From an uncultured Bacteroidales bacterium (GTDB taxonomy: Bacteria > Bacteroidota > Bacteroidia > Bacteroidales > UBA932), in NCBI GenBank assembly GCA_900316955.1, contig ONEX01000009.1, positions 36,697-100,696 of the forward strand: 64,000 nt of DNA, given 5' to 3'. The translations under genes and the position numbers were made by a program. Below, one piece after another: positions 13,615-40,064 of this stretch (position 1 is its first letter; each line of letters opens with the position of its first letter). Under the pieces are notes generated by a model. That model worked only from the letters and a program-made list of their open reading frames with translations, was not told the origin of the DNA and ran no database searches.

Positions 13615-14555
13615 TAATTGTGTTTCAAGTGGATGTCCAGCTGCGGGAACGGGAAGGAGATATCCTGTTCCGGCAGCTCCGTATAGACGGCTTCGTTTAG
13701 CCAGTACGACACTTCGAAATAGTCGGACGACTTCACCCAGATCCGGATGAGGAATTCGACGGAACTGTCTTTCAGCGAGCTCAGCACGACCGTGGGATCC
13801 TGGGCCCCGGGTGTCGACCCGTCCAGGATCTTTTCCTGCGCCCCGATGATCCGCTGCAGCTTTTCCCGGACGGCCGCCGCGTCGCAACCGTAGGCGACAT
13901 CGACGGTCCGGTCGATCCGGCGGACGGGGTTCGCGCTGTAATTGTTGATGGTGCCGTTGGAGAGGGCGCCGTTGGGCAGGATGACGAGCTTGTTGTCCAT
14001 CGTCGTGATCTTCGTGCTGACGATGTTGATTTCCTTCACCGTGCCGGCGTATCCCTGCGCTTCGATGTAATCTCCCGCCTTGAAGGGCTTGAAAGCCAGC
14101 AGCATGATGCCGCCCGCGAAATTCTGGACGGTTCCGCTCATCGCCATGCCGATGGCCATTCCGCCGGCGGCCAGGAGGGCGGCGAGCGAGGTGGTGTTGA
14201 TGCCCAGGGTGCCGATCATCACCATGATGAGGAGGATCCACAGGACGGCGGTTACCAGGCTCTGGATGAAGGAAGTCAGGGTCGCATCGGTCCCGCGCCG
14301 CGTGAACGCCTTGGCTATCAGATGCTTGAACTTTCGGATGAGCCAGGCGCCGACGAGGTAGATTACCAGGGCGACCAGGACTTTGATGCCGAACTTGATG
14401 AAGGAGGTGACCATCTCCTCCACCAGTTCCTTGGGTGGCGTGTTCCGGAGGACCTCCATGATTTCCGCACCCTTGGTGGTCAGGGAATCGGCGGAGAACT
14501 TCTGGGCGATCTGCTCGGCTTCGGGGGTGACGGTCTGCAGGATATGGAAAAGCAT
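13614..14555 (-). CDS. Small-conductance mechanosensitive channel, MscS family
   Basis: 313 residues. Three N-terminal transmembrane helices are visible (around 45-70, 85-110 and 115-140), followed by the Gly/Ala-rich pore helix AALLAAGGMAIGMAMSGTVQNFAGGIM and the beta domain (GDYIEAQGYAGTVKEINIVSTKITTMDNKLVILPNG as separate strands), all typical of MscS. It opens under membrane tension to protect against hypo-osmotic shock. It is third in the rlmD, exchanger, mscS operon, three bases after the exchanger. Confidence 0.92.
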   Translation of the reverse strand: MLFHILQTVTPEAEQIAQKFSADSLTTKGAEIMEVLRNTPPKELVEEMVTSFIKFGIKVLVALVIYLVGAWLIRKFKHLIAKAFTRRGTDATLTSFIQSLVTAVLWILLIMVMIGTLGINTTSLAALLAAGGMAIGMAMSGTVQNFAGGIMLLAFKPFKAGDYIEAQGYAGTVKEINIVSTKITTMDNKLVILPNGALSNGTINNYSANPVRRIDRTVDVAYGCDAAAVREKLQRIIGAQEKILDGSTPGAQDPTVVLSSLKDSSVEFLIRIWVKSSDYFEVSYWLNEAVYTELPEQDISFPFPQLDIHLKHN

Positions 14556-28413: not shown

Positions 28414-28464
28414 CTTTCGTGACGGGGAGGCCACCACCCAATCTTTCATTTTCCGAACCCTTTC

Positions 28465-28604
28465 GCCAAATAGCCGCACATCGGCACCCCCCTATGGGCA
28501 TGCAGAACGCCCCACGGTGTGCGCCAAGGCTCGATATCGGGCTCTGGCGCACCGCAACCATCGACACAGCGCGCACACGGCCACTTCTTGTGCGGCTGTT
28601 TGGC
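28465..28604. repeat. 140-base structured repeat, copy 1
   Basis: Ends form an imperfect inverted repeat: GCCAAATAGCCGCAC (28465-28479) against GTGCGGCTGTTTGGC (28590-28604), with one G:T mismatch. Inside are the stem GTGCGCCA/TGGCGCAC (28519-28526 and 28545-28552) and smaller hairpins GCCG/CGGC and GGGC/GCCC. A second copy (29467-29605) is about 80-85 percent identical by eye. Interior sequence such as CTCTGGCGCACCGCAACCAT is shared exactly. It could be a non-autonomous mobile unit or a structured RNA. Confidence 0.75.
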
Positions 28605-28652
28605 AGTGGTGCGGGTGAAGTCCCGAGAACAGGGACGTCACCCGCAGTCACT
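28605..28652. other. Strong hairpin abutting repeat copy 1
   Basis: Nested stems: AGTG/CACT at the base, GCGGGTGA (28611-28618) with TCACCCGC (28638-28645), and GTCCC (28620-28624) with GGGAC (28632-28636). No T-tract follows, so it is not a standard terminator. It joins directly to the end of repeat copy 1, and no open reading frame of note crosses it. Confidence 0.6.
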
Positions 28653-28705
28653 ACTGGAGTCCCAGCCCAATGATAATCTATCTCAAGGAAGGTCTGATAA
28701 AGGAA

Positions 28706-29377
28706 TCAGCGTGCCGGCGGGCGCAAGTAGGTTGAGATGATGTAAGAATCCGTATTGGAATAGTGATGATGGAGTACGCCGTCCTCCATGACCCAGACGA
28801 AGATCTCGTTTTCCGTAATGAGATACCCCTCTTCACTGAGGGTGTAAGACGATTGCTCTGTCCGGCGAGGTGTCGTCCGTTTGATGGTAGATTCGGAAAT
28901 CTCGAGCGTAATGTTCTCACTTTCGGCCAACTCCCATTTCCCTAGGGCACGATTCTCGACCTTCGCCTGGCTTTTCTCCGGCGGGGCCTGCATCTTCACC
29001 AACTTTTGACCATCTTCCCCACGTCCCGTACCCGGTGTCTGGAGTACATGATTGCCGATGAAAAGATACGTCTCACACCCAAACGGGCCGCCAAACACGA
29101 TGGTCTTTCTGTCAAAGAAAGAAAACTCATACGACTTGAGCGGTTGGCTCCAGACATCAACGGTTGGATATTCCTTCAGAAAACAGTAACCGACCCAGCG
29201 CGGGGTCATGTTCTCCCGGATTCCGTCTTTGCCGATGATGTAGCAGTCCCCCGTCCGGGGATTCTCCCAACATCCGTAAACCCACTCGAAACCTTCCGGA
29301 AGCGGCTGGGCCATCAGGTCCTCTCTGGATAGGCCGATGACCGCGACTGCAAATAGGAAGCAGATTATTCTTTTCAT
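28706..29377 (-). CDS. Orphan secreted protein of unknown function
   Basis: 223 residues, not recognised. An N-terminal signal peptide (MKRIICFLFAVAVIGLS..., cleavage near MAQP) indicates export. The mature part begins PLPEGFEWVYGCWENPRTGDCYIIG, with several aromatic residues and three or more cysteines; Tyr/Trp-rich beta segments and a repeated [S/T]-[Y/H]-S stretch near the end suggest a small beta domain. Codon use and GC are clearly lower than the flanking psuK and ligA genes. It is bracketed by the two 140-base repeats in direct orientation, and no standard promoter is obvious. Confidence 0.65.
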   Translation of the reverse strand: MKRIICFLFAVAVIGLSREDLMAQPLPEGFEWVYGCWENPRTGDCYIIGKDGIRENMTPRWVGYCFLKEYPTVDVWSQPLKSYEFSFFDRKTIVFGGPFGCETYLFIGNHVLQTPGTGRGEDGQKLVKMQAPPEKSQAKVENRALGKWELAESENITLEISESTIKRTTPRRTEQSSYTLSEEGYLITENEIFVWVMEDGVLHHHYSNTDSYIISTYLRPPAR

Positions 29378-29466
29378 CTGATAACCAGGATTTTTGTTAC
29401 CAGCCTCGCAGCAAAGACCGTTCCAAAAGAAAAACGATCAACGGTCCCCACCAACATTCACTTTTC

Positions 29467-29605
29467 GCCAAACAGCCGCACATCGGCATCCCCTATGGGC
29501 ATGCATAACGCCCCTTCGTGTGCGCCAAGGGCCGATTACGGGCTCTGGCGCACCGCAACCATCGACACAGCGCGCAGAACGGGCACTCCCGTGCGGCTAT
29601 TAGGT
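29467..29605. repeat. 140-base structured repeat, copy 2
   Basis: Same orientation as copy 1. The left end GCCAAACAGCCGCAC (29467-29481) and right end GTGCGGCTATTAGGT (29591-29605) still pair in part, and the inner GTGCGCCA/TGGCGCAC stem (29520-29527 and 29546-29553) is perfectly kept. The loop between them differs from copy 1 but can refold (AGGGCC with GGGCTCT), which looks like compensatory change. Confidence 0.75.
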
Positions 29606-29621
29606 GGAATCTGCACGGGGT

Positions 29622-29705
29622 GCGCCCGGTGGTGCACAAGAAGGGACACCGGGCGCGGAAAGAGGGCAATAATGCGGCCGGTGGTGTCGGATTTGGGACA
29701 CCGGG
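29622..29705. repeat. Tandem hairpins between repeat copy 2 and ligA
   Basis: GCGCCCGGTG (29622-29631) pairs perfectly with CACCGGGCGC (29647-29656). About 52 bases further, CCGGTGGTGTC (29678-29688) pairs with GGACACCGG (29696-29704). Both hairpins share the motif GGGACACCGGGC, so they are probably a duplication. They lie in the roughly 450-base gap without genes before ligA. No T-tract follows. Confidence 0.6.
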
Positions 29706-29782
29706 CACGCTGGGGGCGAAGAGGGGGTGTAATCTTTTGGGAAGGAGGCCGCATTTGGAGCTTTCAAATATAAAATATTTGA

Positions 29783-39138: not shown

Positions 39139-40064
39139 AACGAACCATCCTGACCATCCTGGCCGCCCTGCTGTGCGTCCTCTCCTTCGCGCAGGGTAGC
39201 AAAACCACCTACATGGTCGCCCAGCGCGACACCTGCGACCTCTTCATGGACGTGTACGAGCCGGTCGCCGTTCCGGCCGACACGCTCGACAGGCCCACCA
39301 TCCTGTTCGTCTTCGGCGGCGGCTTCATCATGGGCCGGCGCGACGATCCGTGGGTGATGCCCTGGTTCAAGCTCCTGAACGAGAACGGCTACCGGGTGGT
39401 CTCCGTCGATTACCGCCTGGGCCTCAAGGGCGTCCGGATGCGGTTCGACCTGTTCCACCTCATCCAGAGCGCGAACTACACGAAAAAGGCTGTCGATATG
39501 GGCGTGGAGGACGTGTTCGCCTCCGTCCGCTACCTGGCGGACCATCCGGAGATTGGCGTAGACATGGACAACATCGTCATTTCCGGCTGTTCCGCCGGGG
39601 CGATGATTTCCCTTTCCTGCGAGCTGGAAGCCTGCAACCGGACCGTCCGCGCGGAAATCCTCCCCGAGGGCTTCCATTTCGCCGGCGTGATGTCCTTCGC
39701 GGGCGCGATCATGTCCGACAGTGGGAAACCCGCCTATAAGCGCACCCCCTGCCCGCAGCTGCTCATCCATGGCACCAACGACGGCGCCGTCGCCTACGAA
39801 AAGATCGGCTTCGGCCGCTGGGGCATGTTCGGCAGCAGCTACCTCGTGAAAGAGGTCCTGGAGCCCAAGGGGTACACGTACCAGATCTATCGCTACAAGG
39901 GCCACAGCCACGACATGGCCGCCAACATGCTGGCCAACTGGCCGGAAGAGAAACGCTTCCTGGAAGTGTCCGTGATGGGCGGGAAACCGCTCGTGATCGA
40001 CAGCATGGTGGATGACCCGACGATGCCGGTTTGGCAGTCGGTCACCCTGGACGATATCTATTGA
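39135..40064 (+). CDS. Secreted alpha/beta-hydrolase (esterase/carboxylesterase type)
   Basis: 309 residues with a signal peptide (1-20, MKRTILTILAALLCVLSFAQ). The oxyanion-hole region is LFVFGGGFIMG, and the nucleophile motif is SGCSAGAM with Ser near 152. Late His (KGHSHDMAA near 256) fits the catalytic His. It is similar in form to secreted carboxylesterases or acyl-esterases acting on carbohydrate or lipid substrates; the substrate is unknown. It overlaps ispG by four bases and ends three bases from the converging psd gene. Confidence 0.75.

Follow-up and report, generated by a model that had tools for sequence, protein, structure and literature searches.

The window analysed here is a 64,000-nucleotide stretch of DNA from an uncultured Bacteroidales bacterium. 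It contains two copies of a long imperfect palindrome, in direct orientation, on either side of an orphan gene. The first copy, w1, occupies positions 28464–28605 of the forward strand (142 nt) and the second, w2, positions 29466–29606 (141 nt); each is one base wider per end than in the earlier note that first pointed to the pair (28465–28604 and 29467–29605). Their likeness, estimated there by eye at roughly 80–85%, is 87% identity by BLAST within this genome (E 2.0e-41) and 83% over the ungapped 115-nt core, with 94% over the first 31 nt.

Each copy can be drawn as one long hairpin. In w1, two inverted modules of ~71 nt (28464–28534 and 28535–28605) carry the terminal arms CGCCAAATAGCCGCAC (28464–28479) and GTGCGGCTGTTTGGCA (28590–28605), which enclose the inner arms GTGCGCCA (28519–28526) and TGGCGCAC (28545–28552), all given on the forward strand. 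The corresponding forward-strand parts of w2 are the terminal arms CGCCAAACAGCCGCAC (29466–29481) and GTGCGGCTATTAGGTG (29591–29606), the latter imperfect, and the same inner arms at 29520–29527 and 29546–29553. The pairing end arms described previously (CGCCAAA[T/C]AGCCGCAC and GTGCGGCT..) are in place, as are the inner arms, which do not differ between the copies.

The gene on the outer side of w1, which we take from its open reading frame, not from a family search, to be pseudouridine-kinase-like, presents its 5′ end to the repeat, and the orphan gene presents its 3′ end. On the other side, w2 separates the 5′ end of the orphan from a gene presumed in the same way to be ligA; these genes are divergent, and w2 is upstream of both. 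The orphan (28706–29377) encodes 223 aa with a hydrophobic N-terminus and has no Pfam match. It is absent from the genome G003, along with both repeats, and there the neighbouring genes adjoin.

Smaller hairpins lie nearby. A separate hairpin, TGCGGGTGAAGTCCC/GGGACGTCACCCGCA, abuts w1 at 28610–28646; it also flanks a RAYT-like gene of the same genome (L061, contig C12) and abuts the element at L057, and a pattern search of this genome that tolerates a single mismatch finds it at 17 sites, versus 7 for a reversed control. Directly beside w2 are two GCCCGGTG..CACCGGGC-like hairpins (29621–29657 and 29673–29709). Position 39248 of the window holds one match to CTCGTACAGGTCC, a hairpin arm that flanks the RAYT-like gene on contig C36.

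A dispersed family of modular palindromes

Instead of the isolated pair lacking covariation that the earlier note had named as the opposing outcome, the genome holds 13 copies, 12 of them with both ends, and their stems covary. BLAST returned 12 matches and a search with the 16-nt ends brought further pairs. Ten of the two-ended elements measure 140–142 nt, one 129 nt and one 90 nt; the thirteenth copy, on contig C33 at about 13834–13962, has no left end. Eight of the 13 overlap no open reading frame of at least 150 aa, and the other five overlap mechanically called frames whose reality is uncertain.

Beyond this genome, a covariance model built from 18 copies finds the family in 20 of 121 genomes of the same genus. 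In an order-wide sample of 295 genomes, searched with stricter filters under which weak matches may be missed, the sole match is the window's own genome. Across 84,980 species genomes, a strict two-ended pattern recovers five named contigs. Each belongs to a Bacteroidales MAG, and the titles of three mention the rumen or reticulum of goat or sheep; no viral contig matches that pattern.

From the matches listed we assembled a partial collection of 89 elements, leaving loci L088 and L089 and copies C15 and C33b out of the table. Lengths of 140–144 nt account for 77 of the 89, and the 12 others were excluded from most counts. The covariance model, which set most of the ends, has a preference for ~141 nt; a model-free scan gives 139–146 nt for the main element pairs of close transposase homologues. 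Folding was analysed on an alignment (A6) of 68 copies, obtained by removing nine of the 77 by hand, mainly near-duplicates or orthologues, and flanks were counted for 76 of the 77, one being too close to a contig start. Half-modules came from 40 elements of exactly 142 nt; all 80 halves entered the shared-consensus comparison, and 63, after removal of similar ones, the counts of half-palindrome pairing and spacer covariation.

Each element consists of two inverted modules of ~71 nt that are themselves imperfect palindromes. In most elements the motif GTGCNNC lies on the inward side at both ends and recurs near nt 54–56 from either end, giving four occurrences per element. The outer motif varies by genome (GTGCAGC, GTGCGCC, GTGCTTC, GTTATAC), and the inner motif often changes along with it. 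The consensus ends of both the 68 and the 76 elements are CGCCAAACAGCCGCAC-like with RAAA outside; the base directly outside is A or G at 99% of left and 97% of right ends (76 elements) and is followed by an A-rich triplet.

The spacers diverge between copies, and the 80 halves share one sparse consensus (A21, A32, T39, T50 and others) in which the left half resembles the reversed right. Likeness between halves within an element (0.351) does not exceed that between elements (0.361), and both values lie above the shuffled one (0.253). The conserved bases at nt 21, 32, 39 and 50 are about one helical turn apart. Each half is imperfectly palindromic about nt 35.5: spacer pairing reaches 0.509 at i+j=71, the 27 other offsets give 0.325–0.421, and none of 300 shuffles exceeds 0.424. 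Elements of 70 nt in G083 and G020 resemble one module that carries an end at either side, as expected of a central deletion.

A transposase gene flanked by the elements

A ~300-aa open reading frame lies next to an element on two of those named contigs, and at locus L058 it sits between two elements. The assembly of the window's genome contains only two 121-codon C-terminal fragments of this gene, cut by the edges of contigs C5 and C38, that are 77–78% identical to the L058 protein; on C5 an element begins 10 nt past the stop codon. A protein-only search of the 121 genus genomes gave 25 at E 1e-30 or better and 17 with at least 48% identity. Eleven homologues, the fragments aside, reach at least 62% identity, and nine of these are flanked on both sides by elements 8–255 nt away. 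Of the other two, that of G071 has a model-detected element on one side, with a model-free look suggesting another on the second, and that of G006 (62%) has none; L109 likewise has no flanking elements. Thirteen of the 121 genomes carry both gene and element, seven the element only, four the gene only and 97 neither (Fisher p 1.5e-9, for genomes that are related and in many cases incomplete, and at a 48% identity cut picked after the homologue search results).

In G020 and G152, two transposases that are 68.5% alike differ in their ends, each being flanked on both sides by a terminal sequence particular to it, and orthologous transposases that are 99% alike have common ends. Near distant homologues there are hairpins with other ends, namely TTGTAGAAAGTGAAGCAC (G036), GGGTCGGCACGC (G155) and CGCCAAACAGTATAACAC (G161), and a 30% homologue in G155 has hairpins of 141 nt with GAAAATCACCTTCC ends on both flanks. 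In these comparisons the terminal sequence is seen to change with the transposase. A scan of transposase flanks detects hairpins in 29 of 68, versus 10 of 340 shuffled sequences and 19 of 262 control windows, the latter including loci known to carry elements; because L102/L103 and L123/L124 are 99% alike, the flank counts lack independence. Eight distant paralogues in the window's genome show no element-sized hairpin in any of their 16 flanks, and several of these paralogues have shorter ones. Taken by comparison, the tie between the family and the transposase is well supported.

The protein carries the features of a Y1/HUH enzyme. An HxH motif is present in all 20 aligned homologues (HPH in 16, HIH in three, HVH in one), as is a catalytic-type tyrosine within Y...Q.TKDGK; the Y...NP motif of TnpA-REP class 2 is absent, with Y...Q in 20 of 20. 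Neither Pfam nor NCBIfam yields a match to the element-linked protein (L056/L058) itself. The protein does match paralogues in the window's genome, best of all the one on C12 (E 8.2e-21), and three of the eight paralogues scanned (C12, C36 and C35) score above the Pfam Y1_Tnp cut-off. Six of the eight match NF047646, the REP-associated tyrosine transposase model, at E 5.8e-6 to 7.9e-11, none reaching its cut-off of 80 bits. Homology to RAYT is indicated by this chain, the element-linked protein matching paralogues that match Y1_Tnp and NF047646. A profile search of the PDB returned IS200 transposases only, at values that are not significant (E 0.21–0.4), and the predicted structure, from a two-sequence input, is poor (mean pLDDT 44.4). 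Judged by its sequence relationships, the ~300-aa Y1/HUH transposase is a distant relative of RAYT (TnpA-REP). Nine further divergent RAYT-like genes (L061–L069, on contigs C12, C15, C36, C35, C23, C18, C23, C35 and C8) are found in this 3.1-Mb genome (G000), and several carry shorter flanking hairpins of their own.

With a probability of roughly 0.8, we read the repeats as REPIN-like mobile DNA elements that are non-autonomous and would be acted on by a Y1/HUH transposase, itself a divergent member of the RAYT (TnpA-REP) superfamily. One of the two readings offered in the earlier note was of this type: a mobile unit, short and non-autonomous, that ends in terminal inverted repeats. Dispersal around the genome, conserved ends, divergent interiors and the flanking transposase bear this out; movement itself is not borne out, as no clean empty site was found.

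Covariation and competing explanations

Predicted folding of w1 and w2 is stronger on all four strands than in dinucleotide-shuffled sequences (z −4.86, −3.17, −2.81 and −3.33). Under a long-hairpin model of 16 outer and 8 inner pairs, the compensating inner-loop changes noticed in the two window copies prove real and reach across 68 copies: 89.4% of cells are paired (81.1% when shuffled), 118 cells are double changes (34.2 when shuffled), and 19 of the 24 pairs have double changes. The covariation score is 0.245, against 0.039–0.073 when the model is slid, and none of 500 shuffles equals the long hairpin in any of these measures. Two side-by-side half hairpins were considered as another fold and rejected with a score of 0.107 versus 0.245. 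Private compensated stems occur in C18 (GTGAACGG/CCGTTCAC) and C35 (GTGCGGCA/TGCCGCAC).

This covariation is confined to the outer and inner stems. Spacer identity between halves is at chance, per-pair covariation in the spacers is mostly absent (two of 17 pairs at p < 0.03), and their excess over column composition at i+j=71 is 0.016, which is not outstanding; the half palindrome within the spacers is a symmetric consensus rather than covariation. For A6, RNAalifold gives a small covariation term (−0.92). Covarying ends may also arise with no selection for folding, through template-switch repair of palindromes or through a single protein that binds both ends. Given these alternative origins, the covariation is no proof that the fold has a function, and it does not distinguish RNA from DNA as the folded molecule.

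Strong predicted folding on both strands and the covariation of both stems are what might be expected if the repeats were a structured RNA or a cis-acting transcript element (an attenuator, terminator or stabiliser) that had spread as copies, the second reading offered in the earlier note. We consider this improbable. The transposase gene is tied to elements on both sides, the near-symmetric element folds on either strand, and w2 is placed upstream of both divergent genes, w1 between one 5′ end and one 3′ end; no Rfam family matches within the window at the gathering score.

Another account regards the palindromes as dimer sites of a double-stranded DNA-binding protein, kept by the host for chromosome organisation or regulation, with the transposase present by chance or domesticated. 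It draws on the four motifs at fixed spacing, the sparse conserved bases spaced by about a helical turn, and the old copies that occur in more than one species. A host function of this kind is hard to reconcile with a family present in only 20 of 121 genus genomes and with terminal sequences that follow the transposase, and we hold it to be quite improbable.

The 16-bp terminal inverted repeats, the shortness and the intergenic position would also suit a MITE of the classical type, mobilised by a DDE insertion sequence. Target-site duplications, which the earlier note had proposed to look for, were not found at lengths of 2–10 nt in 76 elements; in the duplication scan one of 45 cells exceeds the shuffles (k=4, offset 4; 4 versus a maximum of 3). 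That result, the Y1/HUH protein encoded between elements, and interiors that are unrelated yet fixed in length make such an origin very improbable. A gene cassette bordered by integron-like attC sites, with the 223-aa gene between w1 and w2 as the cassette, is scarcely credible: the direct copies flanking one gene, the long imperfect palindromes and the element end GTTTGGC, which is near the attC core, are outweighed by the dispersed rather than arrayed copies, by an outer stem without the unpaired spacer that attC sites have, and by the transposase as the gene between elements elsewhere.

Age, known relatives and significance

Because w2 has an orthologue in G064 (C10:35199–35339) and w1 is a remnant of ~30 nt there, both window copies are old; G003 carries neither. 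Other copies likewise occur in more than one species (C18 with G069, and G003_C71 with G064). No clean single-element empty site was found for w1, the C33 copies or the one G152 copy examined, each candidate being either a larger indel in a repeat-rich stretch or a truncated copy. Copies common to species, together with the lack of a clean empty site, indicate elements that are mostly inherited, which fits the account of REPINs in the relevant parts of PMC8049555. We infer that the window copies are old passengers that have not freshly moved. More generally, the elements are probably passengers of the flanking transposase, which would have mobilised them at least in the past.

Mobility and its mechanism are inferred from these patterns. 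On single-stranded DNA, such as that of a replication fork, the transposase would recognise the hairpin that the ends of an element form with its GTGCNNC motifs; the HUH/tyrosine site of the enzyme would cut and rejoin at the element ends; and elements would be copied or moved to intergenic sites without target duplication.

Several established systems, RAYT/REPIN, REPtron and TIRtron, are of the same kind in the descriptions available from PMC6006769, PMC3733652 and PMC8049555. The remark in the earlier note that no named family has this shape is thus half right: REPIN/RAYT and TIRtron/TIRYT are relatives in kind, and the geometry seen here is absent from the descriptions of them covered here. 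With REPINs and their RAYT/TnpA-REP genes (REPtrons) the elements share, according to the portions of PMC8049555 and PMC6006769 concerned, two inverted palindromic modules forming a hairpin, a diverse inner sequence, an intergenic position, a Y1/HUH transposase between copies and a repeat particular to each transposase. They differ in that the consensus ends of the 68 and 76 elements lack the GT[AG]G foot of REPs, the module is 71 nt where REPs are described as 20–40 bp, the copy number is low (13), the outer and inner motif is repeated four times, and the transposase is ~300 aa with Y...Q replacing Y...NP.

In TIRtrons (TIRYT; Di Nocera 2013, PMC3733652), as outlined there, a Y1 transposase also lies between terminal inverted repeats that are not GTAG REPs, and the repeats, some of them self-complementary, form moderately abundant families as here. 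Most TIRYT members carry the motif GGGGWSAS according to that outline, whereas here the consensus ends lack it and the transposase has a complete ~141-nt hairpin on either flank. TnpA-REP subclass 2.6 (Quentin 2018, PMC6006769) shares, in the text describing it, an occurrence in Bacteroidetes, flanking "atypical secondary structures" and copies elsewhere in the genome. Its proteins are given there as having a median of 179 aa with WQ and YIH[QN]NP, in contrast to ~300 aa, YDY.WG.. and YT.IQ.TKDGK here; the flanking structures are compared by description only. The HUH motif, the single tyrosine and the Y...Q spacing are common to IS200/IS605 TnpA, but the present protein is twice as long and has 141-nt hairpins at its flanks.

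Literature searches on REPIN/RAYT and TnpA-REP in Bacteroidetes, on tyrosine transposases and inverted repeats in rumen Bacteroidales and on TIRYT turned up no account of this family, nor did PMC12306157; a cousin may be described in supplements or figures. Tentatively, the transposases might constitute a new Y1/HUH clade marked by Y...Q.TKDGK, by HPH where a hydrophobic residue is usual, and by a C-terminal domain of large size. Its co-evolving target would be a "palindrome of palindromes" of 141 nt that carries four recognition motifs at fixed, helically phased intervals and is read by shape and spacing, not through a GTAG guide.

The family is an unusually regular repeat of the REP/REPIN type in one group of uncultured Bacteroidales, one not described before in the literature covered above. 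The biology of REPs and REPINs is known mostly from the GTAG repeats of Proteobacteria. Here one genus holds lineages that each have a transposase and matched ends at the same length and motif spacing, a natural series for the study of target recognition by Y1 transposases that also bears on the question of why such repeats persist so long.
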